Part shown: positions 8,148-32,577 of the stretch, in pieces
Position numbering within the stretch: the first letter of the stretch is position 1
Layout: each line of letters begins with the position of its first letter
IMG/VR virus record: IMGVR_UViG_3300020183_000229
Coordinates: 1-37,171 of that record
From: a virus
Direction: 5' to 3' (one strand)
DNA: 37,171 nucleotides
Translations under genes and position numbers: made by a program
The notes under the pieces: generated by a model
What the model saw: only the letters and a program-made list of their open reading frames with translations
What the model was told of the DNA's origin: nothing
The model's database searches: none

Positions 8148-9449
8148 ATGTCTAGTCTTGGTGCTGATGAGATGTATAAAAGGGAAGGAAGAGTTACTAC
8201 CTTTCTTAAGAAATTAGAGACAAAAGACCCTTTTGTTCTTACTAACGGACTTAAAGTAGTACTGGTTGATAACGAGCCATTAAGAGAGGCTCTTAAAAAT
8301 AAAGTACCTGTAAAGAATATCACGCTAGTTGATGATAAGGGAAATACTTATTCCTTTAATAAGCTTCAAAAGACTCCTGAGTTTGGAGGAGGTGGGGGCT
8401 CAGGTGCTGGATCAGAAGTAACTGACCTCGGTGAATCTGCTCAAGCTCTTTACGCTCAGGCGCTCTTTCTTTATGGTAATACGGAGAAAGACTCGTTAGT
8501 AAAAGCGTATGAGAAAGTTGATGTTTCAGCTTCTCTAGAAGAATTAATGACCAAGCTTCCAGAGGATTGGATTGAATCGAGCAGGATTGGAGCTAAGGCT
8601 ATTAAGGACAATCTGTATATACAGAATGCAACCTTTCATCGACAATCAAAATGGGTACAAGGATTAGAAAAGCATTTTAAGAATCTTAACAAACAAGAAG
8701 GTTCTATCTTTGGTGATATTAATAAATGGTCTCCAGCAGACATCTATATGTTATCATCGAAAGGGGCCTCTATACCCTTCTATAATGCAACTACTCTTGC
8801 TGACTTTAATGCTGTTATGTACGATGCGATAAAGAGTAAAGATATAGTTGGTATCTCGTTAAAAAAGATGATAGGAACAGCTTCGTTTAAGTATTATAAT
8901 ATCGGTGAGAAGAAAAAGAAGATAAAATATAAGAGTTATACGGTCGGAAAAACTGGCTTTTTTAATGCAAAAGATACCTTTATATTCTTCGAAGAAGATG
9001 GTCAAATTCAGTTTAGAACATTTCCATCTTTTCAGGGAGAAATAAAAGGCACAAACGCCAGCCAAGGAAAGATATCCTATGGTGCTATTGCCCCTATCTT
9101 TCGTACAAAGTTTGAGGTGACCGCTCCGGAAATCAATGATGTTAAAAGAGCTATTAAGAACTCAAGACAAGAGTTTCTTAAAGCGTTGTATGTAATGTAT
9201 ATGCAATTAGATACTAAAGATAGCCCAAAATTAACACCTGAAGTCTTTATTCAGAAGGCTAATGAAAAAGATGAGGAGTGGTTGTTGAGTAAGTTTATGG
9301 GGTGCGCTATCATTCAGCTGATGCTAAGTGTTACATTGCCTCGTAAATGGAAGTCTACTGATGATCCTAAAGATGTACTAATCTCATCTATCATTACATA
9401 CGCTTCCTCTCAGTCGGATCTTTCAGGACCATATGCTAAAGTTGAATGA
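8148..9449 (+). CDS. Conserved phage protein with Gly-rich linker
   Basis: 433 aa. A short N-terminal domain (about 1-78) is joined by a GGGGGSGAGSE linker (about 80-90) to a large C-terminal part beginning TDLGESAQALYAQALF. That Gly-rich linker followed by a (T/S)xxxESAQ(A/C)LY motif is a pattern I recall from proteins of several myovirus and siphovirus lineages, usually hypothetical. No enzymatic residues are obvious. It is the first gene after the terminator at 8094 and precedes genes with capsid-targeting-like tags, so a virion or assembly role is plausible but not shown. Confidence 0.7.
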   Translation: MSSLGADEMYKREGRVTTFLKKLETKDPFVLTNGLKVVLVDNEPLREALKNKVPVKNITLVDDKGNTYSFNKLQKTPEFGGGGGSGAGSEVTDLGESAQALYAQALFLYGNTEKDSLVKAYEKVDVSASLEELMTKLPEDWIESSRIGAKAIKDNLYIQNATFHRQSKWVQGLEKHFKNLNKQEGSIFGDINKWSPADIYMLSSKGASIPFYNATTLADFNAVMYDAIKSKDIVGISLKKMIGTASFKYYNIGEKKKKIKYKSYTVGKTGFFNAKDTFIFFEEDGQIQFRTFPSFQGEIKGTNASQGKISYGAIAPIFRTKFEVTAPEINDVKRAIKNSRQEFLKALYVMYMQLDTKDSPKLTPEVFIQKANEKDEEWLLSKFMGCAIIQLMLSVTLPRKWKSTDDPKDVLISSIITYASSQSDLSGPYAKVE

Positions 9450-9457
9450 GATAAATA
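9450..9457 (+). promoter_or_regulatory. Possible T4-type late promoter
   Basis: GATAAATA matches the NATAAATA/TATAAATA late-promoter box of T4-like phages and sits 34 bases before the start of the next gene, directly after a stop codon. Confidence 0.4.
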
Positions 9458-9490
9458 GAGTATAGAATACAGTTAACAGGATTAAACACA

Positions 9491-10681
9491 ATGGATTCAT
9501 TTAAATTATATCTATCAGAAGCAGCTGCATCAGAGGATAGACTATCTCATCTAGAGCATGCGGAAGACCATGTTATCAATGCTGGTGACAAAGGCTTTGC
9601 CCATGCATTCCATAATCTTCAAGATACACATGATAAGCTTCACGGTAAACATAACAACACAACCGTGATGACCAAGTATGATGGCTCTCCATCCATTGTG
9701 TTTGGACATCATCCAGAAACCGGCAAGTTCTTTGTTGCATCTAAGTCTGCGTGGAATAAAGATCCAAAGATTAACCATACTCCAGAAGATATCGAAAGAA
9801 ACCACGGACATGCTCCTGGTCTAGTTACCAAACTCAAGCATGCGTTAAAGCACCTACCAAAGGTAACTCCAAAAACTGGTGTTTATCAGGGTGACTTAAT
9901 GCACTCTGGTATTAAGTCTAAATCTAATCCAGAAGGTGATGTTGATACTCATGCTGGTAAATACCATTTCAAACCTAATACTATTACCTATTCAACCAAG
10001 CATGGTTCAGATGAAGGTAAGAAGATTGAAAAGGCCAAGCTTGGAGTAGTAGTTCATACCGCTTATAAAGGTAAAACCTTTGCTAGCATGAAGCCAGACT
10101 ATGCTCCTGATCTTAGCCATTTCAAAGATCATCCAGAAGTTCATCGTATTGATAATAGAAACGATGTACAACACGCTAAGATGTCTCCAGAACATCACGA
10201 GAAGTTTAAAAAGCATCTGCATGCTGCCACTGCTGCGTTTAATTCTGCACATAAAGACTTTGATAAGGGGCTAGAAGGTCATCGTGAGCATATTAAGACA
10301 TATATCAATAAGACTGTTCGTGATGAGACTAAGCCAACTTTGACCGGATACAAACAGCACCTCAAGGATAAATTTACAAAAGAAACTACCAAACTTAAGA
10401 CCGATAAGGCTCGAGGTGCCAAGCAAGCAGAAATGAACACCCATCTTCAGCATGTTGAGGACAATAAACATCATATGCAATCGGCTTTAGATATGCATCA
10501 TCACCTTCAAGCAGCTAAAGATCAGCTGGTGCATGCTATGTCTTCACACCAAAAGTTTGAGCATCATATTGGTGGTATTAAGTCAAAGCCAGAAGGATAT
10601 GTCGTTGTGAGAAACAACAGACCTACTAAGCTAGTTGATCGTAAAGAATTCTCAAGAGCAAACTTCCTAGCAAGATCATAA
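9491..10681 (+). CDS. KxDG ligase-like nucleotidyltransferase with capsid-targeting-like tag
   Basis: 396 aa. Motifs of the covalent nucleotidyltransferase (DNA/RNA ligase) superfamily are in order: KYDGSPS (residues 62-68, candidate AMP-accepting Lys62), GVYQGDLMH (about 130-138, motif III-like), EGYVVVR (near 367, motif IV-like) and a late Lys-containing KLVDRKEF (motif V-like). It resembles phage putative RNA ligases (I recall DUF6267). His/Lys-rich spacers separate the motifs. The first ten residues MDSFKLYLSE followed by Ala match the T4 capsid-targeting peptide MKTYQEFIAE|A position by position, including the [LI]xE|A protease site, so the enzyme may be packaged and trimmed. The stop overlaps the start of a HAD phosphatase, forming a possible end-healing/sealing pair. 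Ligase activity is inferred, not shown. Confidence 0.75.
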   Translation: MDSFKLYLSEAAASEDRLSHLEHAEDHVINAGDKGFAHAFHNLQDTHDKLHGKHNNTTVMTKYDGSPSIVFGHHPETGKFFVASKSAWNKDPKINHTPEDIERNHGHAPGLVTKLKHALKHLPKVTPKTGVYQGDLMHSGIKSKSNPEGDVDTHAGKYHFKPNTITYSTKHGSDEGKKIEKAKLGVVVHTAYKGKTFASMKPDYAPDLSHFKDHPEVHRIDNRNDVQHAKMSPEHHEKFKKHLHAATAAFNSAHKDFDKGLEGHREHIKTYINKTVRDETKPTLTGYKQHLKDKFTKETTKLKTDKARGAKQAEMNTHLQHVEDNKHHMQSALDMHHHLQAAKDQLVHAMSSHQKFEHHIGGIKSKPEGYVVVRNNRPTKLVDRKEFSRANFLARS

Positions 10682-11304
10682 TGGACACGTTTAAGCAGTA
10701 TCTAGAAAAGAAGAATAAAGGATCATTGCACGTCTTTGATGTGGATGATACTTTGTTTCATACCACAGCTAAGATTCATGTAAAGGATTCTAGCGGCAAG
10801 ACTGTTGAGAAGCTTTCTAACTCAGAATTTAATGATCATAAACTACCACATGGTCATAGCTATGACTTTAAAGAGTTTACCTCTGCACATAAGTTTAATA
10901 AGGAATCAAAACCTATTCCTAAGATGTTAAATAAACTTAAAGCTATTCACTCTAATATTAAACAAAAGCCTAACTCACGAGTAATTATGAATACTGCTCG
11001 TGCAGACTTCGATGATAAGAATAAGTTTCTAAACACGTTTAGAAAGCATGGGGTAGATATCGATAACATTCATGTACACCGTGCTGGTAATATTCCTGGT
11101 GATCAGTTTCCTGCTCATAAGAAGGTTCAAATTATCAAGAAGTACCTCGACGACAACAAGATAGGTTCCGTACATATGTACGACGATTCAAAGACCAATC
11201 TTAAGCATTTCGTTGGCATGAAGCAAGATCATCCAGACGTTAATTTTCATGGATGGCATGTAAAATCAGATGGATCAATACAAAAGTATAAACCTGAAGA
11301 ATAA
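10681..11304 (+). CDS. HAD-superfamily phosphatase, tagged N-terminus
   Basis: 207 aa. HAD motif I is FDVDDTLF (19-26, nucleophile D20, acid/base D22), motif II lies in MNTARADF (about 99-106), and motif IV is YDDSKTNL (near 180). The class is close to phage polynucleotide 3'-phosphatase domains, although a general HAD phosphatase cannot be excluded. The N-terminus MDTFKQYLEK resembles the tag of the neighbouring ligase-like protein (M-x-[ST]-F-K-x-Y-L) but lacks a perfect LxE|A site (LEK). Its ATG overlaps the ligase-like stop codon, so the two are translationally coupled. Confidence 0.8.
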   Translation: MDTFKQYLEKKNKGSLHVFDVDDTLFHTTAKIHVKDSSGKTVEKLSNSEFNDHKLPHGHSYDFKEFTSAHKFNKESKPIPKMLNKLKAIHSNIKQKPNSRVIMNTARADFDDKNKFLNTFRKHGVDIDNIHVHRAGNIPGDQFPAHKKVQIIKKYLDDNKIGSVHMYDDSKTNLKHFVGMKQDHPDVNFHGWHVKSDGSIQKYKPEE

Positions 11305-11310
11305 TAAATA
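11303..11310 (+). promoter_or_regulatory. Possible T4-type late promoter
   Basis: AATAAATA, a match to the NATAAATA late box, lying in the 73-base gap before the 11378 gene and overlapping the upstream stop codon. Confidence 0.35.
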
Positions 11311-11377
11311 ACCATATGCGCTACAGTAAGGCTAAGGCAAACCTGTGGTATAACGGATAAGTCTAAGGAAAACTCCG

Positions 11378-13594
11378 ATGGAAAAAGATGATAAGAAAAA
11401 GGGTGTTAAAACCCTTAAAGATTTTACCCTAGGTAAAAAGAAAAACGAAATTAAATTCAACCCTGAGTTAGAAACTAGACAGGGTATGAATGAAGAGGCT
11501 GAAAAGACCGTTGCCATGCTATATGGCCGCATGAACCCGCCTACTAAGGGTCATGAAGAAAATGTCGAAGGACTGAAAGCGCTCGCTAAAAAGCATAATG
11601 CCGATCATGTCGTGATCGCGTCCCATTCTCAAGACTCCAAAAAGAATCCGTTAGACGCCAAGACCAAGATGAAGCACCTTAAGCGTGCGTTCCCTGGTAC
11701 TAATCTAGTGGCTGCCGATAAAGAACACCCATCAATTTTTCATCACCTTGCTAAGCTACATCAGCAAGGATATAAGCATGTCATCATCGGAGCAGGTGAA
11801 GACAGGGCAGACGAATACAATAAAGTAAAAGAGTATAACGGCAAAGAAGGCCGTCACGGTGTGTATAATTTCAAATCTATTAAAGTAGTATCTACAGGTG
11901 AGCGTAAGCAAGGAGTATCAGGTACTGATATGCGCAAGCATGCTACATCTAGTAACTATGATGAGTTTAAAAAGAACCTTCCTTCCAATTTACAAAAGCA
12001 CGACGAGCATGCAAAAGCGCTTTACCATGATACTAGAAAAGGACTTGGTGTGAACGAAGAGTACATTTATACAGAAGCAGACTTTGACGAGGTTGCAGAA
12101 GAGTATCTACAGGAAAGAGTTTTAGATCTTCAGCAACGTCGTAAGCGTGCTATTCAAATGCGTAAGATTGCACCAAAGCTTCAACGCGCTCGCGCTATTG
12201 CTATGCATAGACTTGCAGGTGATAAGCAATTAAAGAGACGCGCATTCAAGATGGCAAAAGATATTCTACGTAAACGTTACGCCGGTCAGCGTGGTGCACA
12301 CTATCACGAGCTCGGTCCTACAGATAGAATTTCAGTCGATAAGCAAATCGATTCAAAAGTATCAGCAATCAAGCGTATAGCTGCTCGTTTAATGCCAAGA
12401 TTGAAACAAGCTGAAGCTAAGCGTCTTCAAGCTGTAAGGTCTGGCACTAAACCAGCAGGTTTAGGCGGTGTACAACCAGGGATGGTTGCCGCTAGTTTTG
12501 ATCCTCTATTGAAAATGGTAGAAGGTTTGTACGAATCAAAAGAAGAGTTTGATACTGTTATGTCTATTGCACAAGCTGCTCTAAACAAAGTAGCTCCTAT
12601 CACTGAACAAGAAAAACATAATATTCAAGTTAAGTCCAAGCTTTCTGGAATTGACTCTTCTATTCTAGAAGAAGTGTTTAGACGTGGTCTATTAATTGCA
12701 GAAGGAAATGAAAAGCAAATTCGTCAACATGCCTTCCAGCGCCTGAACTCTTTTGTATCTGGTGGTAAGGCATTCTACGAAGATGATAGTGATCTGGCTG
12801 AACAGCTTGGCCAAGATAAATCTAGAAATGCTCGCGAGAACGACGCGCCATTTGAACCAGATCCTAAGAAGGGCCCTATTGCTACACCTGGCAAACACGG
12901 TCAGGGATACTCTACAGCAAGACATCTTGCTCGTATGGGTTTAAAGCAATTTATGGATAAGCAAAAAGAAAAACTAAAAGAAGAAGCTGAGCTAAGCGAA
13001 GCAACCGACTTGAATAAACACATAGCTGATTTTTCTAAAGGTATCAAATCATCTTCTGCGAAGCAGAGCACCTACAAACGCGACAACAAGCCTATACCTA
13101 ATATGAAGCATGTTGAAACTGACGCTGATCATCAGAAGGTGTTTGATCATCTAAAGAAAATGGGATATAAAAAGTCTAGCGGGTATGATTCAAACCCACA
13201 TAAATTTGATATGCATAACAACCATGAGACAATGATTTCAAAAAGCGATCCAGTACATCACTCATCTGGTATCTCAGCACATATTGAAAAAGAACATGGC
13301 AGTAAGATGAAAGTTCATTTTACTCAACGCAATATGAAGGAAGGTTTAGATCTAGTAAGTGAAGCAAAAGACCAGAACAAGCGTAATAGAATGCGCGAAC
13401 TGGCAAAAGCAGGTCTTGTTGATAAGCAAGACTATTCAAAATTTGACAACATAATGTCAAAGATTATGACATCAGGTAACACTGATGATATTTCTCAACA
13501 GGAGAAGGCGTTTCTTGCAACAATGTATGACAGACTTTCAGATGTCATTACTAGCAATCAGCAAATTTTCCAACAAGTGAAAAAGAAGGTATAA
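11378..13594 (+). CDS. Nucleotidyltransferase-domain modular protein
   Basis: 738 aa. The N-terminal domain (about 43-215) is a cytidylyltransferase/NMNAT-type HxGH fold: GRMNPPTKGHE (50-60) supplies the nucleotide-binding TxGH, and GVSGTDMRKH (179-188) is the ISGTxxR-type motif. A basic helical domain follows (about 250-350, RAIQMRKIAPKLQRARAIAMH), then a linker with FVSGGKAFYED, and a C-terminal module bordered by LSE|A (539-542) and VSE|A (660-663), sites of the kind cut by T4-type prohead proteases. The substrate of the transferase cannot be told (NMN, pantetheine and others use this fold). The length is far above a free NMNAT, so it is likely a virion-associated fusion. Start ATG 11378 follows AAGGAAA. 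Confidence 0.75.
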   Translation: MEKDDKKKGVKTLKDFTLGKKKNEIKFNPELETRQGMNEEAEKTVAMLYGRMNPPTKGHEENVEGLKALAKKHNADHVVIASHSQDSKKNPLDAKTKMKHLKRAFPGTNLVAADKEHPSIFHHLAKLHQQGYKHVIIGAGEDRADEYNKVKEYNGKEGRHGVYNFKSIKVVSTGERKQGVSGTDMRKHATSSNYDEFKKNLPSNLQKHDEHAKALYHDTRKGLGVNEEYIYTEADFDEVAEEYLQERVLDLQQRRKRAIQMRKIAPKLQRARAIAMHRLAGDKQLKRRAFKMAKDILRKRYAGQRGAHYHELGPTDRISVDKQIDSKVSAIKRIAARLMPRLKQAEAKRLQAVRSGTKPAGLGGVQPGMVAASFDPLLKMVEGLYESKEEFDTVMSIAQAALNKVAPITEQEKHNIQVKSKLSGIDSSILEEVFRRGLLIAEGNEKQIRQHAFQRLNSFVSGGKAFYEDDSDLAEQLGQDKSRNARENDAPFEPDPKKGPIATPGKHGQGYSTARHLARMGLKQFMDKQKEKLKEEAELSEATDLNKHIADFSKGIKSSSAKQSTYKRDNKPIPNMKHVETDADHQKVFDHLKKMGYKKSSGYDSNPHKFDMHNNHETMISKSDPVHHSSGISAHIEKEHGSKMKVHFTQRNMKEGLDLVSEAKDQNKRNRMRELAKAGLVDKQDYSKFDNIMSKIMTSGNTDDISQQEKAFLATMYDRLSDVITSNQQIFQQVKKKV

Positions 13595-13596
13595 AA

Positions 13597-13824
13597 ATGT
13601 TAAACAAAATTAAAGAGTGGTTGTTTGGACCATACAAAGAAGAGGTAAAGACGGTTGAAGCAGCTCCACAGCTAGCTCCAGTTGTACAAGAGCAACCAAA
13701 GAAACAAAATAATAAACAACGTCACTATCCTAAAAAGCAGCCTGCTAAGACTGCACAAGAGGTTAAAAAGCCCAAACAACCTAAGCGTAATAACTGGCAA
13801 ACAAAACCAAAGAATAAGCAATGA
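13597..13824 (+). CDS. Small basic disordered protein
   Basis: 75 aa. A short N-terminal helix (KIKEWLFGPY) is followed by a Pro/Gln/Lys/Asn-rich low-complexity tail with about 20 Lys/Arg, typical of a DNA-contacting or scaffold tail. It sits 2 bases after the previous gene and overlaps the next by 4 bases. Function unknown; an internal capsid protein is one possibility. Confidence 0.6.
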   Translation: MLNKIKEWLFGPYKEEVKTVEAAPQLAPVVQEQPKKQNNKQRHYPKKQPAKTAQEVKKPKQPKRNNWQTKPKNKQ

Positions 13825-14015
13825 AGTCTTTTAAGTCTTTTCTAGATGAGAATTTTATGGATGGACGTAACCCTCAAGATAAAGGGGATATGAGTAGACA
13901 TGGTCTCAAGGGAAAGACTATTGCACAGTTGAAGAAGATTAGATCGTCTGAGACTGCGTCACCAAGAAAGAAGCAGCTAGCTCATTGGTACATTAACATG
14001 CACAAAGGTAAATAA
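13821..14015 (+). CDS. Small basic protein with capsid-targeting-like tag
   Basis: 64 aa. It begins MKSFKSFLDE then Asn, matching the M-x-[ST]-F-K-x-[FY]-L-x-E tag pattern of its neighbours (LDE|N instead of LSE|A). The rest is RHGLKGKTIAQLKKIRSS...SPRKKQLAHWYINMHKGK, a conserved small phage family I recognise by pattern but cannot name. Basic character suits DNA binding inside the head. The next ATG follows the stop directly. Confidence 0.65.
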   Translation: MKSFKSFLDENFMDGRNPQDKGDMSRHGLKGKTIAQLKKIRSSETASPRKKQLAHWYINMHKGK

Positions 14016-14288
14016 ATGTTATCGTTTAAAGAATATTTAATCGTCGAAGCAGAATATCAGGGACGCGAAGTATCCCTTGGTAAACCTATGGCTGGTGACG
14101 TTAAAAAGTCAAAAGTGTATGTTCGTCATCCAGAAACCGGAAACGTCGTTAAGGTAAACTTTGGCGATAAAAATATGCGTATTAAAAAGAATATTCCGGC
14201 ACGACGTAAGTCATTTAGAGCAAGACATAACTGCGACAACCCAGGTCCAAGACATAAGGCAAGATATTGGTCTTGCAGGGCGTGGTGA
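14016..14288 (+). CDS. Small virion-type protein with LIVE|A tag
   Basis: 90 aa. N-terminus MLSFKEYLIVE then Ala, again a tag with an I-x-E|A protease-like site. The C-terminal half is strongly conserved in marine myoviruses as I recall: KKSKVYVRHPETGNVVKVNFGD followed by ARHNCDNPGPRHKARYWSC, with two Cys and several Arg/Trp. Such proteins are usually hypothetical; zinc binding is possible but only two Cys and one or two His are visible. Part of the tagged gene cluster 9491-14288. Confidence 0.7.
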   Translation: MLSFKEYLIVEAEYQGREVSLGKPMAGDVKKSKVYVRHPETGNVVKVNFGDKNMRIKKNIPARRKSFRARHNCDNPGPRHKARYWSCRAW

Positions 14289-14292: not shown

Positions 14293-14679
14293 ATGGCAAA
14301 TAAACATATTTTAAAATTAACAGATACAGAAGCGGTGTTAAAACTATACACCACTTCACCTACAGGTACTACTATTGATATTAGCTTGCAGACCGATCTT
14401 ACTGCCAACGGACAAACATGGGTAGGAAATGCTCATGTAGGTATTCAGTACATTGCATGGGGCGCAAAGAAAGATAAAGAAATCGATATCACCAGAATAA
14501 TTACCCCAGCCAACAACGAAGTGCATGGACACTATTATTTAATTAATGCAGGTGTAATGGACTTTAATGGTCAAGGATTTGTTGACGATGTATATGCAAG
14601 TAAAGATATTAGAGTCACATTGGATGGCGAAGGCCACGTAATAATTAAGCTTAGAAAACAACATGGGTGGACAAGATAA
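14293..14679 (+). CDS. Beta-rich virion-type protein
   Basis: 128 aa with alternating Thr/Val/Ile strands (ILKLTDTEAVLKLYTTSPTG), a Gly/Asn-rich middle and an IKLRKQHGWTR end. This composition is typical of small head or tail decoration proteins in T4-like marine phages, but no specific homologue is assigned. The TAA overlaps the ATG of the Dps-like gene. Confidence 0.6.
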   Translation: MANKHILKLTDTEAVLKLYTTSPTGTTIDISLQTDLTANGQTWVGNAHVGIQYIAWGAKKDKEIDITRIITPANNEVHGHYYLINAGVMDFNGQGFVDDVYASKDIRVTLDGEGHVIIKLRKQHGWTR

Positions 14680-15116
14680 TGGATGAATTAATTAAACAGA
14701 TGCAAAAGCTGCTAGCAGATACCTTTGTGTTATATCTCAAAGGTCATAACTATCATTGGAATGTTGAGGGTAAAGATTTTGCCCAGCTACACGATTTCTT
14801 TGGTAGCTTTTATGAAGAAGTACATGGATCTGTCGATACAACAGCAGAACAGATTAGAGCTATGGATGAGTATGCTCCTGGCACTCTGATCAGATTCAAA
14901 GCGTTATCTTCTATTGAAGAAATTATCGCTGTACCATCTGCTATGAATATGATTATTGATCTCTATAATTCTAACGAACAACTATTACAACAATTAGAAA
15001 TGTGTAATGAGCTGGCAGAAAAACAAAAACAAACCGGTCTTGCTAATTACTTGCAAGAAAGAATCGATATGCATAAGAAACACTCCTGGATGCTTAGAGC
15101 GTTCACAAAGGGATAA
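14679..15116 (+). CDS. dps: Dps-like ferritin-family protein
   Basis: 145 aa from ATG 14679, which overlaps the previous TAA; the GTG at 14667 is an alternative. The four-helix ferritin-like pattern is clear: NYHWNVEGKDFAQLHDFFGSFYEE (about 24-47) followed by DTTAEQIRAMDEYAPG (53-68). This is the Dps ferroxidase arrangement with His26, His38, Asp53 and Glu57 as likely iron ligands. Dps dodecamers oxidise and store iron and can bind DNA. It lies among virion-type genes, so it may act inside the particle or protect DNA late in infection; that is inference. Confidence 0.85.
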   Translation: MDELIKQMQKLLADTFVLYLKGHNYHWNVEGKDFAQLHDFFGSFYEEVHGSVDTTAEQIRAMDEYAPGTLIRFKALSSIEEIIAVPSAMNMIIDLYNSNEQLLQQLEMCNELAEKQKQTGLANYLQERIDMHKKHSWMLRAFTKG

Positions 15117-15118: not shown

Positions 15119-15754
15119 ATGAGTAAGTTTAGAACTCTAGAGGGCTTTATTAGAGACGTTATGACCGGTCAATCAAAGACTGGAAATAAAACTGTTCTTG
15201 AAAACGCCATTCGTACTATTATGGAAAAGCCAGAAGATATCGAAACCGATCAGAATGATCAGATTACAGTCGGCTCATATGTTACAAAGAATTTTGAAGT
15301 CTGCCCTGTCGCTCAAAAACTCTATACCAGTCTTAAGGATAATAAGAAGGTGGATGTTAATGAGGCTGAGAAGGCAGCAATTCAATTAGATAAACTATTT
15401 GCTTTAGAAAAAAGCGTTGTAGCTAAAGATGCAGCCACTCCAGAAGATGTAAAGACTGCAGAGGACTTAGAAAAGAAAGCCATGCACCACGCAACTAAGG
15501 CTGGACTAGACCAGGACTTTGGTTTTGTCGGGGCGCATGTTGAAGTTATAAAGAAAAAAGTAACTAATATGGATAGAGTGGTCGATGCAAAAGATTACTC
15601 TCACAAAGACGAGGTAGTAAAGCGCTTTAAGACATTCGATAAGCGAAACAACCCTGATCCAAAAGGTACTGATTTTGACACAGACAATTCTAAGTTTGCA
15701 ATAACACGAAATCTAAAAGCACAACGCAAAGTAAAAATTATCGATGGAGACTAA
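15119..15754 (+). CDS. Hypothetical virion-type protein
   Basis: 211 aa, helical and charged, with no known fold. N-terminus MSKFRTLEGFIRDVM is faintly like the [ST]FK-x-[YF]L tag of nearby proteins, but no LxE|A follows. The C-terminal third is basic (HKDEVVKRFKTFDKRNNPDPKG). It lies 2 bases after Dps and just before the modular polyprotein-like gene, so a packaged or head-assembly role is possible. Confidence 0.6.
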   Translation: MSKFRTLEGFIRDVMTGQSKTGNKTVLENAIRTIMEKPEDIETDQNDQITVGSYVTKNFEVCPVAQKLYTSLKDNKKVDVNEAEKAAIQLDKLFALEKSVVAKDAATPEDVKTAEDLEKKAMHHATKAGLDQDFGFVGAHVEVIKKKVTNMDRVVDAKDYSHKDEVVKRFKTFDKRNNPDPKGTDFDTDNSKFAITRNLKAQRKVKIIDGD

Positions 15755-15764
15755 GGAGCAAAAA

Positions 15765-17849
15765 ATGAGCCTAAAAGATATTAGTGCAGCACTTGCACAG
15801 GTAACAAGCCAAGTACTTCAAGACTCGCAAGAGCGAATGAAGATTGGTATTGCCGAAGAGGCATTAAAGCACTACGATAAAAATGGTCAATGGCCAAAAA
15901 TGGTAGTGTGGGAAAACAAGATTCGCGACGTTAAGTTTACTCTTGATGAAGCAAAAGAACTAACTGACAAGCAAAAGAAAATTGCTAAGGTAGCTGGCCA
16001 TCCAGGTAAGATTGATGCAGCTGACTTTACCGCTCTTCGTGCAGGTCATAAGATTAAAGAAGAAGCGGAACTATCAGTAGATGAACCAACTGAGGATGAC
16101 TCGGTGTTCGATCTAGTAGATGGTGAAGCTGAATATGAGCTTAAAGAAGGGGTAGAGCTGCAAGAAGGCAAAGTTGTGCATGGTGTTCACACCATCTATA
16201 CTGGTGCTGTAGTAAAGGGTATGCCTGAGGGTAATCCTTCTCATGTTGATGCTGCTCATCTTGGCCGTACTAAAGCTCTTGGCGTGCCAACCGAGAAGGG
16301 TGAGAAGTATGGTAAAACGGTTCGTGTAGTAGTTAAGAATAACGAAACTGGTGATACAACTCATCACCATGTCTATCAGCGCGATTTTCAAGACAGCAAG
16401 CGTCCGAGAATTTCTATTCGTGACGTAGGTGCTGCTCGTGAGAAACAAGCAGAGCATTTCAAAGCACTTCATGACTACCTGTCTGGTAAAAAGCCAACTA
16501 CAAAGTATTCAGGTAAGATAAGCGAAGAAATTGACTTAGATGAAGCCGTAGAAGTTCAGTCTGATCACTACAAATCTGCTCATGGAAAAGCACCCTCAGG
16601 AGAAGGAAGCTGGATGTTTACTCCGTATAAAAGCATCAATTTTTCCAAGCACAAAGAAGGCGAACACTATATTAGCGTACATGGCAAATATGGCGAGGCT
16701 AAAAAGAAAGCACAAGCATGGGCCAAATCCAAGGGTCACGGCATTATTAAAGTAGCCGAAGAAGTTGATCTTGACGAAGCAAAGAAACCAATGACTCAAG
16801 ACGAAAAAGATAGAGTTCAAGCTGGTTTACGAGCAGCAATGAAAAAAAGTTACGACAATGAAATGAAAGGCCGTGCTGCACTTGAAACTGCCAAAGCTGT
16901 CGCTAAAGCCATGGCTTCGGCAGACAAAGCCAAAAAAACTAATGAAGAAAAAGACACTCCAGGTCAAGAGCACATGTGCGCCGTTCATGTCAAGCATTCC
17001 AAATTAGGCGAAGGTCGCACTGTAACTACTCAGCACGCTGATCCAGATGCTGATGGTAACATTGAATGGTATGATGTTATGTTCGAACATGGCATTGAAA
17101 AGCAAGTGCCTACATCAGACCTAGAGATTTTATTTGCTGAGTCTCATATGCACGGTAAGCGTAAGATGAAGGAAGACGTTGACCTGGAGTATGTGGATGA
17201 AGCAGTTACTGTTAAGAAGCAGAACTACTCATGGGGTAAGATGGTAACCGTTCATAAGGGTGCTGATACTTCATACCCTCTACATCCAGAACATCAAGCT
17301 GCTATCAAGCGCCTACGCCCTTCAGGTGAACACTCAAAGACTTCATTCAAAGATGAAACCGGTCGTATGGTTCATGCAACTAGAGAAGGTGATAAAGTTC
17401 ATTTAGTATCACATGGTGCTAACAGCGATAAGACAACCGTTAGTTATAAACACTTCGATGAAGAGGTAGAGTACGTAGATGAGGGTCGTGGCCGCCCACG
17501 TAAGAATCCAGATGATCCAAAGTGGAAAAAGCAGAACCAGGCTAAGCCTATTAAAACCAGCAAGCATGATGACGAGGATGAAGAGGATTATGGTCCGGAT
17601 ACAGGTCCAGAGCCAGATCAAAACATCATTAATCAGCTAAAGAGAGCTCATGATGCAAGAAGTATGAAAGGACATGCAGATGTAAAGTTTGCAGATAATA
17701 AGGTTCACAGCGTTCCTTCTCATGTTGCTAAAGCAGTTCTTGATGGCCTAGATAAGTTAAAGCCGTCAGATAGATTAAACGTACAACAGCATATTCATCA
17801 GTCTCATAAGAACTTGATGGCTGTACATAAAGTAATTTCAAAAGCCTAA
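15765..17849 (+). CDS. Modular polyprotein-like protein with LxE|A/G sites and AT-hook
   Basis: 694 aa from ATG 15765 (AAGGAG at 15753-15758; ATG 15744 lacks an SD). Short globular modules are separated by acidic linkers ending in LQE|G (132-134), IDLDE|A (to 260), VDLDE|A (to 338), EYVDE|A (to 479) and EYVDE|G (to 573). LxE|A/G is the cleavage rule of T4-type prohead proteases. Modules include a His-rich domain after LQE, an SDHYKSAHGK-type domain after the first LDE, a basic Ala-rich helix, and a CAVHVKHS...EWYDVMFEHGIEKQV domain known from other phage virion proteins. An AT-hook GRGRPRK (574-580) follows the last site. The picture is of a precursor yielding several small internal DNA-binding proteins, but processing is inferred. 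Confidence 0.75.
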   Translation: MSLKDISAALAQVTSQVLQDSQERMKIGIAEEALKHYDKNGQWPKMVVWENKIRDVKFTLDEAKELTDKQKKIAKVAGHPGKIDAADFTALRAGHKIKEEAELSVDEPTEDDSVFDLVDGEAEYELKEGVELQEGKVVHGVHTIYTGAVVKGMPEGNPSHVDAAHLGRTKALGVPTEKGEKYGKTVRVVVKNNETGDTTHHHVYQRDFQDSKRPRISIRDVGAAREKQAEHFKALHDYLSGKKPTTKYSGKISEEIDLDEAVEVQSDHYKSAHGKAPSGEGSWMFTPYKSINFSKHKEGEHYISVHGKYGEAKKKAQAWAKSKGHGIIKVAEEVDLDEAKKPMTQDEKDRVQAGLRAAMKKSYDNEMKGRAALETAKAVAKAMASADKAKKTNEEKDTPGQEHMCAVHVKHSKLGEGRTVTTQHADPDADGNIEWYDVMFEHGIEKQVPTSDLEILFAESHMHGKRKMKEDVDLEYVDEAVTVKKQNYSWGKMVTVHKGADTSYPLHPEHQAAIKRLRPSGEHSKTSFKDETGRMVHATREGDKVHLVSHGANSDKTTVSYKHFDEEVEYVDEGRGRPRKNPDDPKWKKQNQAKPIKTSKHDDEDEEDYGPDTGPEPDQNIINQLKRAHDARSMKGHADVKFADNKVHSVPSHVAKAVLDGLDKLKPSDRLNVQQHIHQSHKNLMAVHKVISKA

Positions 17850-28230: not shown

Positions 28231-28247
28231 TACAAAGTAAATTTAAC

Positions 28248-28323
28248 TGCCCGTAGTACAACTGGATAGTGCATCTGCCTTCTAAGCAGACTGTTGGGGG
28301 TTCGAGTCCCTCCGGGCAGGCCA
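28248..28323 (+). tRNA. tRNA-Arg(UCU)
   Basis: Perfect 7-bp acceptor CTGCCCG/CGGGCAG, anticodon stem TCTGC/GCAGA with loop CTTCTAA, T-loop TTCGAGT and encoded CCA. Reads AGA. Confidence 0.95.
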
Positions 28324-28370
28324 TTTTACTATTACACAAAGTACAGACATAGACACAGAAAGAAACAAAG

Positions 28371-28610
28371 ATGCTGATGCAAATGAATAAGGCGGGTTAC
28401 GATGAACGACACGGTGGTGCCTACGATCGTGGATCGGCTGACTCCTACTACAATCGACCCTTCAACCCGCATATGTATGCAGGTGACACTATGACCAGCC
28501 CTCGCATTCCTATGGAGTGCATGACCGCTGAAGAAATCACGGCCTACACCGCAGGCTTCCGCGACAACGAACAGTTCAGCGACAAAAGGACTACCGATGA
28601 AGATAATTAA
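28371..28610 (+). CDS. Conserved small phage protein
   Basis: 79 aa with the pattern YDERHGGAYDRGSADSYYNRPFNPH and a C-terminal ITAYTAGFRDNEQF, which I recognise as a common small phage hypothetical. Gly/Tyr/Asp-rich, likely partly disordered. ATG 28371 or 28383 could be the start; neither has a strong SD. It overlaps the thioredoxin gene by 14 bases. Confidence 0.6.
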   Translation: MLMQMNKAGYDERHGGAYDRGSADSYYNRPFNPHMYAGDTMTSPRIPMECMTAEEITAYTAGFRDNEQFSDKRTTDEDN

Positions 28611-28857
28611 ATTTTACGCTGAATGGTGCGGCCCTTGCAAAGTACTTTCCAAGACATTGGAAAGTATGAAGGATGAGTTGTCTGTAGAGATTGAAGAGGT
28701 AAATATTGACGAAGATATCGACAGGGCTCGTCTATATAATATACGAAGCGTTCCTACCATGATCCTAGAAGACAATGGTAAGGAACTATCTCGTCAGATA
28801 GGTAATCTATCTGCAGGTGATATTAGAAAGTTTTTAAACATGTCGACACAGGCGTAA
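28597..28857 (+). CDS. Thioredoxin-like protein
   Basis: 86 aa, thioredoxin fold with the redox centre WCGPC (10-14) and cis-Pro in RSVPTMIL. The usual Trx strands and helices are present but the protein is shorter than bacterial Trx (about 105). It is the probable reductant of the NrdA C-terminal disulfide encoded at 22849, as T4 NrdC is for its own enzyme. Ends 4 bases before an unusual tRNA. Confidence 0.87.
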   Translation: MKIIKFYAEWCGPCKVLSKTLESMKDELSVEIEEVNIDEDIDRARLYNIRSVPTMILEDNGKELSRQIGNLSAGDIRKFLNMSTQA

Positions 28858-28861
28858 CAAT

Positions 28862-28954
28862 ACCTCGGTAGCTCAGCGGTAGAGCAGCGGATTTATACCC
28901 CGTCAGCGCCAGATAAGCGGCAGGTCGTGGGTTCGAATCCCACCCGAGGTACCA
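28862..28954 (+). tRNA. Atypical 93-nt tRNA, anticodon uncertain (UAU by position)
   Basis: Acceptor ACCTCGG/CCGAGGT (perfect), D arm GCTC/GAGC, T arm GTGGG-TTCGAAT-CCCAC and CCA are standard. The anticodon stem GCGGA/CCCGT has an A-C mismatch, and its 7-base loop TTTATAC places TAT at 34-36, reading AUA (Ile). A 23-base variable region follows (28904-28926) with a GCGC/GCGGC stem, a class II feature not expected in tRNA-Ile. It may be mis-folded by eye, a class II tRNA, or carry an insertion. Confidence 0.7.
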
Positions 28955-28964
28955 AAGGACAATC

Positions 28965-29765
28965 ATGAAGCTGACAAAAAAGCAATACAACAAACTAGTA
29001 AAAATAAAAGCTATCAGACCACTTAAAGATATCTATATCTTTGATGTTGATGGAACGCTTACTGATAGTCGCCAGCCAATGAACGCACAATTCAAGAAGT
29101 GGTTCCTGCAATGGATTAAGCAATATGATAATGAAGTGTATTTGGTTACTGGAAGCGACTACGCTAAAACAAAAGAGCAAGTAGGTAGTCAGATCCTTAC
29201 AGAGGTTGATGCGTCTTTTAATTGCTCAGGTAATTCTATCTGGAAGAATGGTAAAGAGATATACACCACCTCTTGGAGACCATCACAACAGCTTCAAAAC
29301 ACTCTCACTGCATTTTTGAGAGAGTCAAAGTTTCTAGATCGTTCAGATAGATTTATTGAATTAAGACCTGGTATGGTTAACTTCTCAGTTGTAGGTCGAG
29401 GATGTACTCCTGCTCAAAGAAGCGCATACATTGCCTTTGATAAGAGGGAGCGTGAGAGACTTTATTTTGCACAGACTATTAATAAGAATTTTCCTGATCT
29501 AGTTGCTTCCGTAGCAGGAGAGACAGGTATTGATATTTTTCCTAAAGGAAAGGATAAAGCGCAAGTCTTAGACTACTTCAAAGAGAACTCACAGTATGTA
29601 ACGTTGCACTTCTTTGGAGATAAGATGAGATCAAATGGTAATGATCGCCCGCTTGCTGATGCTATTAAAAAAGAATATAACGGTGAACATATAATCGTTC
29701 CTGTACTAGATTGGAATGATACGTTCGATTGGCTACAAAAATACGGAACAACAAAGAGAGTTTAA
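28965..29765 (+). CDS. Phosphomannomutase-like HAD phosphatase
   Basis: 266 aa. HAD motif I FDVDGTLT (26-33, Asp27/Asp29) is followed by a central MVNFSVVGR and late FGDKMRSNGNDRPLA, matching the eukaryotic-type phosphomannomutase (PMM) family rather than typical phosphatases. The known reaction interconverts mannose-6-P and mannose-1-P. It is followed immediately by a cytidylyltransferase-like gene, so sugar-nucleotide synthesis is a possible joint role. Starts after the tRNA with AAAGGA as SD. Confidence 0.75.
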   Translation: MKLTKKQYNKLVKIKAIRPLKDIYIFDVDGTLTDSRQPMNAQFKKWFLQWIKQYDNEVYLVTGSDYAKTKEQVGSQILTEVDASFNCSGNSIWKNGKEIYTTSWRPSQQLQNTLTAFLRESKFLDRSDRFIELRPGMVNFSVVGRGCTPAQRSAYIAFDKRERERLYFAQTINKNFPDLVASVAGETGIDIFPKGKDKAQVLDYFKENSQYVTLHFFGDKMRSNGNDRPLADAIKKEYNGEHIIVPVLDWNDTFDWLQKYGTTKRV

Positions 29766-29766
29766 T

Positions 29767-30219
29767 ATGTATGTTAATGAGAAAAGTGTTAGAGGTAAGA
29801 TTGGTTTCACATGCTCGGCGTTTGATCTACTACATGCCGGTCATATTCTTATGCTAGAAGAAGCCAAGGCTAATTGTGAATATCTGATTGTAGGTCTTCA
29901 AAATGATCCTACTATGGATAGACCAGAGAAGAATAAACCAGTGCAATCGATTGTAGAGAGATACATTCAGCTTACTGCGTGTCGTTATGTAGATGATATC
30001 ATTGTATACAATACAGAGAAGGATCTAGAAGACCTACTAACTATTCTTCCTATCAACATTCGCTTCCTGGGTGTTGAGTATGAGGATAGAAATTTTACAG
30101 GGAAAGACATTTGTCATTATAGAGGTATTGACTTATACTTCAACAAACGAGATCACAGGTTCTCATCTTCTGAGCTGAGAACACGTACTGCTAATGCCAA
30201 CCCGCGGGTATCATTATAA
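29767..30219 (+). CDS. Cytidylyltransferase-like protein
   Basis: 150 aa. HAGH (23-26) within AFDLLHAGHILMLEEAK and a C-terminal SSSELRTRT are the nucleotide-binding motifs of the glycerol-3-phosphate/ethanolamine cytidylyltransferase family. The product would be a CDP- (or ADP-) activated sugar or alcohol phosphate. ATG 29767 follows the PMM-like stop; an upstream start would overlap that gene. The pair could modify phage DNA, phage surface or host envelope; the exact substrate is unknown. Confidence 0.75.
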   Translation: MYVNEKSVRGKIGFTCSAFDLLHAGHILMLEEAKANCEYLIVGLQNDPTMDRPEKNKPVQSIVERYIQLTACRYVDDIIVYNTEKDLEDLLTILPINIRFLGVEYEDRNFTGKDICHYRGIDLYFNKRDHRFSSSELRTRTANANPRVSL

Positions 30220-30271
30220 AGAGCAAAAAAGATCAATAAAATCAATAAGTTACAACTTTTTTGAAAAACAG

Positions 30272-30301
30272 TGGATTTTAATTTAAAAAGAGCTATATAA
30301 T
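30272..30301 (+). promoter_or_regulatory. Sigma70-like promoter before tRNA-Gly
   Basis: TGGATT (30272-30277), 18-base spacer, TATAAT (30296-30301), with the tRNA-Gly start 10 bases downstream. Confidence 0.78.
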
Positions 30302-30310
30302 ACAAGGAAT

Positions 30311-30384
30311 GCGGGCAAGCACAAGGTGTGTCGTCAGCCTTCCAAGCTGCACAGAGTTGAGTTCGATTCTCGCTGTCCGCTCCA
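30311..30384 (+). tRNA. tRNA-Gly(UCC)
   Basis: Acceptor GCGGGCA/TGTCCGC, anticodon arm TCAGC-CTTCCAA-GCTGC, T-loop TTCGATT, encoded CCA. Reads GGA. Confidence 0.93.
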
Positions 30385-30392
30385 AAAAACAG

Positions 30393-30421
30393 TTGACTTA
30401 ATTTTCAAGGTAATATAGAAT
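30393..30421 (+). promoter_or_regulatory. Promoter of the tRNA-array leader
   Basis: TTGACT (30393-30398), 17-base spacer, TAGAAT (30416-30421). Predicted start near 30428, which coincides with the ATG of the leader ORF, so the transcript may be leaderless. Confidence 0.68.
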
Positions 30422-30427
30422 ACAAAA

Positions 30428-30532
30428 ATGTTAAAACATTCGGTACAATTTACAACAACAGTAAATCCTAATCACGCAAGTGATTGGGCCGGTATTCTAT
30501 CACCAGAATATTTTGGGGGTCGTTTAAGCTAG
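30428..30532 (+). CDS. Putative attenuator leader peptide
   Basis: 34 codons. The ORF has three consecutive ACA (Thr) codons at 30452-30460 and single codons for many amino acids served by the downstream tRNAs (for example CTA TCA CCA GAA at 30497-30508). It ends with TAG inside the 5' arm region of the antiterminator stem. A hairpin CCTAATCAC-GCAA-GTGATTGGG lies within it (30467-30488). The first downstream tRNA reads ACA (tRNA-Thr UGU at 30641). The layout matches classical translational attenuation, but no SD precedes the ATG, so translation would need leaderless initiation. It could also be a short conserved gene. Confidence 0.5.
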   Translation: MLKHSVQFTTTVNPNHASDWAGILSPEYFGGRLS

Positions 30533-30593
30533 GACGCAGATCTGTACTCTTAACTTAAACGGCCCCGGTAGACCAAAAGTTACCGGGGTTTTT
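30516..30593 (+). promoter_or_regulatory. Attenuator: antiterminator versus terminator stems
   Basis: GGGGTCGTTTAAG (30516-30528) pairs over 13 bp (one U-G) with CTTAAACGGCCCC (30554-30566). The last four C of this stem are also the first bases of the terminator CCCCGGTA/TACCGGGG (30563-30570/30581-30588), so the two folds exclude each other. A ribosome reaching the leader stop at 30530-30532 would cover the 5' arm and favour termination; a stalled or absent ribosome would favour read-through. Mechanism inferred. Confidence 0.6.
30563..30593 (+). terminator. Rho-independent terminator in the tRNA leader
   Basis: Perfect 8-bp stem CCCCGGTA/TACCGGGG, 10-base loop, five T (30589-30593). Confidence 0.88.
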
Positions 30594-30594
30594 A

Positions 30595-30625
30595 ATTGGC
30601 GAAAGCCAATCGCTCTTTGACAATT
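30595..30625 (+). promoter_or_regulatory. boxB-like hairpin and boxA-like antitermination site
   Basis: ATTGGC-GAAA-GCCAAT (30595-30610) is a perfect hairpin with a GNRA loop. It is followed at once by CGCTCTTTGACAATTT, which differs from the rRNA-leader boxA GCTCTTTAACA by one base. The order hairpin-boxA is that of rrn leaders. It stands 16 bases before tRNA-Thr, after the terminator. Confidence 0.6.
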
Positions 30626-30640
30626 TAGAATTTATTATTT

Positions 30641-30716
30641 GCTGGATTAGCTCAGTTGGTAGAGCAACCGCCTTGTAAGCGGTAGGTCGTCAGTTCGAAT
30701 CCGACATTCAGCACCA
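30641..30716 (+). tRNA. tRNA-Thr(UGU)
   Basis: Acceptor GCTGGAT/ATTCAGC, anticodon arm ACCGC-CTTGTAA-GCGGT, T-loop TTCGAAT, CCA encoded. Reads ACA, the codon repeated three times in the leader ORF. Its anticodon loop is copied in the mini-RNA at 31071. Confidence 0.94.
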
Positions 30717-30720
30717 TTTT

Positions 30721-30795
30721 GGACCGTTCGTCTATCGGTTAGGACACCGGGTTTTCATCCCGATAAGAGGAGTTCGACTCTCCTACGGTCTTCCA
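30721..30795 (+). tRNA. tRNA-Glu(UUC)
   Basis: Acceptor GGACCGT/ACGGTCT, anticodon loop TTTTCAT, T arm AGGAG-TTCGACT-CTCCT, CCA at 30793-30795. The CCA is also the first three bases of a 19-bp inverted repeat. Confidence 0.92.
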
Positions 30796-30946
30796 TTTAT
30801 TATATGCTATCGGGGGTAACGTCTATGGACGCATAGACTACACGACATCAAAGGGCCTTCTTAGAAGTCTAATATAACCCTAACAAAGGCTAATGACGGC
30901 TGCAACCGACTCAAAAATATGTTCTTGGATAGCATATAATAAATGG
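30793..30946 (+). ncRNA. Structured RNA closed by a 19-bp inverted repeat
   Basis: The left arm (30793-30811, CCATTTATTATATGCTATC) is perfectly complementary to the right arm (30928-30946). The 116-base interior holds the perfect hairpin GTCTATG-GACG-CATAGAC (30821-30838), a CTTC-TTA-GAAG hairpin, and further pairing possibilities. There is no ORF and no tRNA fold. It lies between tRNA-Glu and tRNA-Tyr, a position like that of the T4 stable RNAs C and D of unknown function. It could be a stable RNA or a processing structure of the tRNA precursor. Confidence 0.65.
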
Positions 30947-30959
30947 TAGTAAAGAATAT

Positions 30960-31046
30960 GGGTAAGAGGCGAATATGGTTGGTCGCGCCGGACTGTAAAT
31001 CCGTTCTCTTAGAGCGTTGGGGGTTCGAATCCCTCCTTACCCACCA
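30960..31046 (+). tRNA. tRNA-Tyr(GUA)
   Basis: Perfect acceptor GGGTAAG/CTTACCC, anticodon arm CCGGA-CTGTAAA-TCCGT, long class II variable arm, T-loop TTCGAAT, CCA. Confidence 0.94.
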
Positions 31047-31070
31047 AATTAAATATGGTTAGAAGAGTTT

Positions 31071-31133
31071 AGGTTAGTTACAGCAATCATAAATGCATTC
31101 AACTTGTAATTGAAAAACGCAAAAAACTAACCT
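31071..31133 (+). ncRNA. Element E1: minimal tRNA-like RNA with Thr(UGU) anticodon loop
   Basis: 63 nt. AGGTTAGTT (31071-31079) pairs perfectly with AACTAACCT (31125-31133). Between them are CAGCAA (31081-31086), a possible 3-bp GCA/TGC D-like hairpin, and a perfect 5-bp anticodon-type stem TTCAA/TTGAA with a 7-base loop CTTGTAA (31103-31109), identical to the anticodon loop of tRNA-Thr(UGU) at 30641. Only 10 bases replace the variable and T arms. No CCA follows; GTTG does. It belongs to a five-member element family in this array. Confidence 0.65.
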
Positions 31134-31143
31134 GTTGTTTAAT

Positions 31144-31233
31144 GGAAGTGTGGCAGAGTATGGTTTATTGCACCGGTCTTGAAAACCGACGACCCGAAAG
31201 GGTCCGTGAGTTCGAATCTCACCGCTTCCGCCA
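31144..31233 (+). tRNA. tRNA-Ser(UGA)
   Basis: Acceptor GGAAGTG/CGCTTCC, anticodon arm CCGGT-CTTGAAA-ACCGA, class II variable arm GACCC-GAAA-GGGTC, T arm GTGAG/CTCAC, CCA. Its anticodon loop is copied in element E2. Confidence 0.94.
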
Positions 31234-31235
31234 TT

Positions 31236-31310
31236 AGCCGTGTAGCTCAGAGGAAGAGCAATCGCTTGATAAGCGATAGGTCGACATTTCGAAACTGTCC
31301 ATGGCTACCA
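31236..31310 (+). tRNA. tRNA-Ile(GAU)
   Basis: Acceptor AGCCGTG/CATGGCT, anticodon arm ATCGC-TTGATAA-GCGAT, T-loop TTCGAAA, CCA. Confidence 0.93.
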
Positions 31311-31317
31311 AGTCTAT

Positions 31318-31394
31318 CGCGGAGTAGGGGAGCAGCCGTCCCCGCTGGTTTCATATGCCAGAGATCGTAGGTGCGAATCCTACCTCCGCAACCA
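31318..31394 (+). tRNA. tRNA-Met(CAU), initiator-like
   Basis: Acceptor CGCGGAG/CTCCGCA has a C1-A72 mismatch, the hallmark of bacterial initiator tRNA. Anticodon arm CTGGT-TTCATAT-GCCAG; the three G-C pairs usual in initiator anticodon stems are not all present. T-loop TGCGAAT, CCA encoded. Confidence 0.88.
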
Positions 31395-31402
31395 GAAAGT
31401 AG

Positions 31403-31431
31403 TTGATTTTTTTATTCAACAGAACTATAAT
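31403..31431 (+). promoter_or_regulatory. Sigma70-like promoter inside the tRNA array
   Basis: TTGATT (31403-31408), 17-base spacer, TATAAT (31426-31431), 18 bases before tRNA-Asp. Confidence 0.84.
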
Positions 31432-31448
31432 CAACAAACTAGAGACTT

Positions 31449-31524
31449 GGTCTTAAAGTGTTCATGGACGCACGCTGGCTTGTCACGCCAGAAGAGTGGG
31501 GATCGTTACCCCCTAGGACCGCCA
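31449..31524 (+). tRNA. tRNA-Asp(GUC)
   Basis: Acceptor GGTCTTA/TAGGACC, anticodon arm CTGGC-TTGTCAC-GCCAG, G/C-rich T stem with loop ATCGTTA (atypical), CCA. Confidence 0.9.
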
Positions 31525-31529
31525 GATTT

Positions 31530-31606
31530 GCCCCGGTGACGGAATTGGTATACGTGTTGGTCTTAGAAGCCAAATTTTAGGAGTTCGAGTCTCCTCTGGG
31601 GCACCA
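31530..31606 (+). tRNA. tRNA-Leu(UAG)
   Basis: Acceptor GCCCCGG/CTGGGGC, anticodon arm TTGGT-CTTAGAA-GCCAA, T arm AGGAG-TTCGAGT-CTCCT, CCA. The variable region is only 5 bases, unlike a normal class II tRNA-Leu. Confidence 0.9.
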
Positions 31607-31613
31607 AGTTTAT

Positions 31614-31688
31614 TGCCAAGTAGCACAGCGGTAGTGCAGGAGACTGTTAATCTCTTGGTCGTAGGTTCGATCCCTACCTTGGCAGCCA
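31614..31688 (+). tRNA. tRNA-Asn(GUU)
   Basis: Perfect acceptor TGCCAAG/CTTGGCA, anticodon arm GGAGA-CTGTTAA-TCTCT, T-loop TTCGATC, CCA. Confidence 0.94.
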
Positions 31689-31704
31689 GACATGTTAAAT
31701 ATAA

Positions 31705-31781
<77 letters not shown>

Positions 31782-31787
31782 AGTTTA

Positions 31788-31840: not shown

Positions 31841-31873
31841 AGTTGATTTAATAATTAAAAGAGGACATAGTAT

Positions 31874-32222: not shown

Positions 32223-32224
32223 AT

Positions 32225-32298: not shown

Positions 32299-32303
32299 AG
32301 TAT

Positions 32304-32379: not shown

Positions 32380-32385
32380 TTCAGT

Positions 32386-32407: not shown

Positions 32408-32420
32408 CCACAAAGATTAC

Positions 32421-32495: not shown

Positions 32496-32501
32496 TATAA
32501 T

Positions 32502-32577
<76 letters not shown>

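Follow-up and report, generated by a model that had tools for sequence, protein, structure and literature searches.

A probable T4-type capsid-targeting tag is shared by a ligase-like enzyme, a HAD-type phosphatase and two small basic proteins on a T4-like phage fragment

The internal proteins IPI, IPII and IPIII of phage T4 carry a 10-residue N-terminal tag in which positions 4 and 7 are aromatic, position 8 is I or L and position 10 is E, and they are cleaved by gp21. This tag, the capsid-targeting sequence, is already known and has been described for the T-even phages. In the T4 record, IPII and IPIII start with MKTYQEFIAE/A (here and below, a slash marks the protease site), IPI starts with MKTFKEFTSTTT and the ADP-ribosyltransferase Alt starts with MELITELFDE/D; the positions at which IPI and Alt are cut are given as background. 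Mutagenesis of IPIII assigned residues 4 and 7 to targeting and residues 8 and 10 to processing, and Asp at position 10 stops processing but not targeting (PMC9026906, a review of Black's work). Alt, with its similar start, is a precedent for a head-packaged and injected enzyme. In P1, an N-terminal signal directs the large anti-restriction protein DarB into the head, but its authors report no consensus among the Dar N-termini, and the scaffold is not of the T4 type.

The locus described here resembles the T4 internal proteins in that unrelated protein bodies have only the tag in common and some of these proteins are small and basic; the T4 IPI start, MKTFKEF, is nearly identical to starts found in relatives of this phage. 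However, the cargo here is not limited to small restriction inhibitors: the tag opens large conserved enzymes (ligase-like and HAD phosphatase) and, in relatives, an NMNAT-like protein and an adenylate kinase as well. The residue following E10 is less often A than in T4, and both the host and the phage lineage differ. Compared with Alt, the enzymes are different, and T4 packages a single large one. The predicted ligase fold and the HAD phosphatase together suggest an end-healing and sealing pair such as T4 Rnl1/Rnl2 and Pnkp. T4 makes these proteins after infection, whereas their counterparts here appear to be addressed to the head.

The same tag is found on virion-associated proteins of cyanophages, namely a set of proteins in S-CREM2, NMNAT-like proteins in S-SCSM1 and S-SZBM1 and a kinase in S-CRM01; in the last three phages, the genes with the tag sit in a block similar to the one described below, after gp41/MazG replication genes. 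The sections of the cyanophage virion papers that bear on detection name no targeting tag. In the literature searched, from which subscription journals were largely missing, we found no report of the tag outside the T-even phages, and cyanophages combined with the capsid-targeting sequence yielded only a T4 review mentioning both. As far as this literature goes, two aspects are new: the general labeling of conserved enzymes with the tag in T4-like phages of both marine and fresh waters, and the explanation that the tag offers for the enzymes published from cyanophage virions.

The window, i.e., the whole stretch of DNA analyzed, spans 37,171 bases and corresponds to an entire IMG/VR record. 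It comes from a T4-like (Kyanoviridae-type) phage, of which it is a fragment that lacks the head genes. A Megablast search with the window found no matches among phage isolates, so the evidence was drawn from protein-level relatives; the isolate relatives identified by DUF6267 are overwhelmingly Kyanoviridae-type Synechococcus and Prochlorococcus phages, plus Pelagibacter and Methylophilales phages. The motif M-x-[ST]-F-K-x-[YF]-L opens four neighboring ORFs, at 9491, 10681, 13821 and 14016, and the features of this block are as follows.

9450..9457, + strand: late-promoter-like GATAAATA, upstream of 9491
9491..10681, + strand: DUF6267 ligase-like enzyme (predicted), 396 aa, N-terminus MDSFKLYLSEAAAS, tag MDSFKLYLSE/A
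9491..9520, + strand: tag of the ligase-like protein, with a predicted prohead-protease cut after codon 10 (LSE/A)
10681..11304, + strand: HAD-type phosphatase (PNK 3'-phosphatase-like), 207 aa, N-terminus MDTFKQYLEKKNKG, tag MDTFKQYL without E10
11303..11310, + strand: late-promoter-like AATAAATA, upstream of 11378
11378..13594, + strand: cytidylyltransferase/NMNAT-like protein of the same block, untagged start
13597..13824, + strand: untagged Lys-rich protein of the same block, 75 aa, pI 10.2
13821..14015, + strand: basic protein of no family, 64 aa, N-terminus MKSFKSFLDENFMD, tag MKSFKSFLDE/N
14016..14288, + strand: basic protein, phrog_7595, 90 aa, N-terminus MLSFKEYLIVEAEY, tag MLSFKEYLIVE/A

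The bodies of the four tagged proteins belong to DUF6267 (E 6e-100), the HAD/PNK-like phosphatases (phrog_415), no family and phrog_7595, respectively, and are unrelated to one another, while F4 and Y/F7 are present in all four. It was thus shown, exactly as the original prediction had it, that four neighboring but unrelated proteins share this start; its further claim that the N-terminus of the 9491 protein aligns residue by residue with the T4 sequence, LxE/A included, also held (ungapped against IPII and IPIII). Homologs of the phrog_7595 protein start with MIGFKAFISE/A and MKKFKSYLTE. The NMNAT-like protein at 11378 has a weak internal KTLKDFTLG at residues 11-19; the candidate codon for an alternative, tagged start is GTT, which is no start codon, and the protein was counted as untagged. 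Its family carries the tag in many relatives and has been detected by mass spectrometry in S-CREM2 and S-SCSM1 virions.

The DUF6267 N-termini were defined, with no motif filter, as the stretch preceding the conserved HLEHxED that begins the domain, which gave 68 distinct extensions. F4 was present in 48 of the 68, F/Y7 in 54, L/I8 in 50 and E10 in 45, with positions 2, 6 and 9 variable; the conserved positions (4, 7, 8 and 10) are those mapped in T4 IPIII. The tag is modular: in contrast to the window, the same DUF6267 enzyme is untagged in S-PM2, MED4-213, S-CRM01 and S-SZBM1, where it begins directly at the domain. In an AlphaFold2 model of the 9491 protein (mean pLDDT 89.6), residues 1-12 scored below 50, and the tag is predicted to be a loose peptide outside the ligase-like fold.

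Within the window, the protease site [LI]xE/[AGS] occurs as an exact LxE/A at position 10 only in the 9491 protein. The site at 14016 is IVE/A, shifted by one, that at 13821 is LDE/N, and the 10681 protein lacks E10; the residue following the cut site is often E, D or K instead of A. Cleavage, also part of the original prediction, was therefore only partly borne out, and it remains an inference from sequence alone: well supported for the 9491 protein, fairly and plausibly for 14016, poorly and doubtfully for 13821 (E/N) and not at all for the HAD protein. The HAD protein could be targeted unprocessed; in T4, Asp10 blocks processing but spares targeting.

The DUF6267 protein has KxDG at K62-D64-G65, EG at 368-369 and K380, and residues K62, D64, G65, E368, G369, V371 and K380 are invariant in 28 homologs. 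When its model was compared using VIA-align, the 50 best rows were all RNA/DNA ligases, with a top Z of 9.5 across 186 residues; Foldseek alone gave weak matches (best E 0.036), the top hits being ligases, and no relatives emerged when the PDB was searched by sequence with the alignments of DUF6267 and of the HAD protein. DUF6267 is thus most likely an RNA/DNA-ligase-type nucleotidyltransferase, with a moderate fold match and with ligase activity inferred. The HAD protein, assigned to phrog_415 (polynucleotide kinase), is similar to the phosphatase portion of these kinases, and its catalytic motifs are intact: DxDxT, NTAR and DD are conserved, and FDVDDTLF and YDDS are kept in 8 homologs. A full tag with E10 is present in 7 of 10 homologs of this protein.

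Related loci (n = 92) were gathered from IMG/VR using DUF6267 and HAD queries. Across these loci and the window, a looser regular expression, M.{1,2}[FYL]..[FYLI][LIMF].{1,2}E, matched 107 of 1527 gene starts vs 6 of 7004 internal ATGs, a >80-fold enrichment at gene starts. This expression was designed with T4 already known, the DUF6267 profile was not selected by it, and counts over homologs share ancestry and are not independent. When the complete records of T4, S-CREM2 and two relatives were surveyed, the N-terminal background was ~3 in 850, leaving out T4 IPII/IPIII and the S-CREM2 proteins detected by mass spectrometry. In one relative (record G005, locus L090), five genes in succession, those for the DUF6267 and HAD proteins included, start with MKTFK[QE]Y[LI]; elsewhere among relatives, the tag is also found on an adenylate kinase, an NT5C-like nucleotidase and other proteins. 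The scheme is patchy, with at most one clearly tagged protein in each of the large relatives G001 and G003. In the window, the shared tag residues use differing codons (TCA/ACG/TCT/TCG; AAA/AAG; CTA/TTA) and the 40 nt upstream of the tagged genes are mutually unrelated; L090 likewise shows differing synonymous codons and unrelated upstream DNA. This indicates that the tag is conserved at the protein level and is not a DNA repeat.

Packaging could be assessed by mass spectrometry only through published virions of relatives, in which the tagged S-CREM2 enzymes and the S-SCSM1 NMNAT are found in particles; of all the evidence, the S-CREM2 data weigh most. In S-CREM2, 52 virion proteins have been detected by mass spectrometry (PMC10665884). 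We scanned the whole S-CREM2 genome and inspected every N-terminus against that table, which identified ORF6, 13, 14, 136 and 154, plus ORF12 with an embedded tag, as tag carriers. Specifically, the detected proteins include, by the authors' annotation, a SAM hydrolase starting with MKDFDSFLEEF, an APH-like kinase starting with VKRFDAFLTEEE and a cytidylyltransferase starting with MKNFSSFLTEAD, together with ORF13 (MKDLHSFLTEQ) and ORF136 (MQTFSMFFSED). In the Cas9-annotated protein, the tag is embedded at residues 19-25 (...LRFASFMAE/AAVD), and its S-CRM01 counterpart reads ...LSLDSFIKEAA. The tag was present on all four detected non-tail enzymes, at the N-terminus in three and embedded in one, vs 0/53 of the named non-structural proteins that escaped detection, a set that includes polymerase subunits, primase and ribonucleotide reductase (Fisher p 2.5e-6; p 3.3e-5 with the two endolysins entered as detected enzymes lacking the tag). 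Over all S-CREM2 proteins, the tag is present on 5/52 detected vs 1/167 undetected (p 0.003). The authors warn of possible carry-over in the CsCl preparation (PMC10665884), and ORF154 was detected by 3 peptides only. In other cyanophages, the NMNAT reported from the S-SCSM1 virion starts with MKSFLQFLKEA, the S-SZBM1 cytidylyltransferase with MRFRQFIIEA and the S-CRM01 kinase with MISFDQFLSE; an NMNAT-like protein and a kinase-type protein have been reported from the S-SZBM1 and S-CRM01 virions, respectively (PMC10665884). The link between the tag and proteins detected in relatives' virions is thus shown.

Two further properties set the tagged genes apart. NATAAATA, a T4-like late-promoter motif, occurs in the 150 nt preceding 37/118 tagged genes vs 184/1434 untagged ones (p 5e-7), and ATAAATA gave the strongest tagged-gene enrichment among all permutations of the motif letters. 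Evidence for late promoters is limited to motif placement in the window and this multi-locus enrichment, and the window as a whole holds no more copies of NATAAATA than chance predicts ([CGT]ATAAATA: 1 observed, ~5.7 expected). Tagged proteins are also basic (median pI 9.48 vs 7.22 untagged), significantly so even without DUF6267; in the window, the block from 8148 to 14288 has pI values of 9.0-10.3 vs 5-6 for the replication enzymes, while the tagged S-CREM2 proteins are not uniformly basic. Both the motif enrichment and the basic charge are shown. As for head machinery, a PF03420 (gp21-type, S77) prohead protease is encoded by 5/7 relatives' records and lies beside the genes for the scaffold and the major capsid protein in the 3 examined in full; the window itself yielded no PF03420 hit, which is unsurprising in a fragment that lacks head genes. 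No strong F..FLxE/A site like that of T4 gp23 was seen in the relatives' major capsid proteins, and weaker LxE/A sites occur in those of 2/3 relatives.

Alternatively, the shared start might have no function in the protein and reflect a cassette for translation initiation or recombination, with the same 5' DNA element duplicated ahead of accessory genes. Tags are indeed more alike within a contig than across contigs (0.52 vs 0.43 identity, reached in 0/2000 shuffles, or 24/2000 without L090), but co-adaptation to one scaffold fits this likeness too. The differing synonymous codons and unrelated upstream DNA in the window and L090, the conservation of amino-acid positions 4, 7, 8 and 10 despite large sequence divergence and the association of the tag with virion detection all speak against a cassette, which we regard as very unlikely.

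We hold it to be just as improbable that the tag is an address to another place in the cell (membrane, replisome or host target) and that detection in relatives' virions reflects contamination. The block does sit among replication genes, and CsCl carry-over was raised by the S-CREM2 authors (PMC10665884); however, 0/53 other named non-structural S-CREM2 proteins were detected, the tag matches the T4 targeting determinants (PMC9026906), and the genes have late-promoter-like motifs and basic products. Chance or compositional likeness of short N-termini can be all but excluded. The loose expression does match by chance at <1% of starts, e.g., in a clamp-loader-like protein of G001, but neither the enrichment over internal ATGs nor the recurrence of the tag on the same families across many contigs fits this explanation.

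We conclude that the shared N-terminus is likely a capsid-targeting sequence like that of T4 IPIII, because its positions match the mutationally mapped IPIII determinants, tagged enzymes occur in relatives' particles, the tag is modular and disordered in the model, tagged genes are richer in late-promoter-like motifs and their proteins more basic, and relatives encode an S77 prohead protease. The original prediction had the ligase-like enzyme and the HAD phosphatase packaged in the head and injected: packaging is well supported but, without virion data, it is inferred for this phage, as is injection. Its claim of head cargo beyond the few internal proteins of T4 is likewise supported as an inference from the tagged enzymes and the relatives' virion mass spectrometry.

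In the mechanism that we propose, which for this phage is inferred from core docking to repair, proteins with the consensus M-x-[ST]-F-K-x-[FY]-[LI]-x-E/x would be synthesized late in infection and would dock onto the prohead scaffolding core via hydrophobic residues 4 and 7. The shell would then close around this core. Where a site exists, the S77 (gp21-type) prohead protease would cleave after residue 10, releasing the cargo. The mostly basic cargo would remain among the packaged DNA and be ejected with it into the next host. In this phage, the cargo would comprise the ligase-like enzyme, the polynucleotide-phosphatase-like HAD enzyme and the two small basic proteins, possibly joined by the neighboring NMNAT-like protein. 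Its likely use would be immediate nucleic-acid end repair and counter-defense at the start of infection, a role that a packaged end-healing and sealing pair beside an NMNAT-like protein could fit.

If the capsid-targeting reading is true, it would provide a sequence-readable rule to explain the metabolic and regulatory enzymes found in cyanophage virion proteomes, make injected effectors predictable in uncultured T4-like phages and offer natural docking peptides for protein-delivery particles based on marine phages. Head-loaded counter-defense would extend from the small restriction inhibitors of the T-even phages to conserved enzymes. A bolder reading, toward which the evidence tips only slightly, is that one transferable tag serves as a general loading code in the T4-like phages of aquatic bacteria. 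Gaining the tag would then make a conserved enzyme (ligase, phosphatase, NMNAT, adenylate kinase, protein kinase or nuclease) a virion-delivered effector, dropping it would end delivery, and every phage would have its own injected kit, readable from its sequence.

A window protein with an excess of prohead protease-type sites (cut marked by |) is listed here with a Dps/ferritin-like protein.

15744-17849: 701-aa protein with many [LIM]xE|[AGS] sites
14667-15116: Dps/ferritin-like protein (PF00210, E 1e-22)

Analysis of the 701-aa protein revealed 7 [LIM]xE|[AGS] sites versus 1.5 expected from composition (P < 0.0005), including LDEA (three times), LQEG, and LKEG. It may be a core protein that undergoes multiple prohead protease cuts, as a T4 scaffold protein does. 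The Dps/ferritin-like gene lies a short way downstream of the tagged block. Farther along, positions 28247-35617 carry 24 tRNA genes representing nearly all amino acids, a set unusually full for a phage fragment. The DUF6267 and HAD proteins of the window are identical to those of the 18.7-kb IMG/VR contig 3300021093_000505; therefore, this virus population has been sampled more than once.

In cyanophage S-CREM2, ORF160 (L005:28342-29235) encodes a protein detected in the virion that matches the phrog_696 major head protein profile. Over a stretch of 24 aa it is 75% identical to the major capsid protein of this phage, and relatives have a GFDP-like segment in common. This may be a second docking or mimicry element. 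ORF12 (L006:7704-10313), also listed among the virion proteins, is annotated as Cas9/Csn1, but its sole match is phrog_3561, a phage family of unknown function, and the Cas9 label is possibly wrong.

In T4, the 54-aa hypothetical protein of gene 61.1 (L009:18966-19130) begins with MKTFKEFIKED, a complete match to the capsid-targeting-like tag. This product might be a so far unrecognized T4 internal protein.
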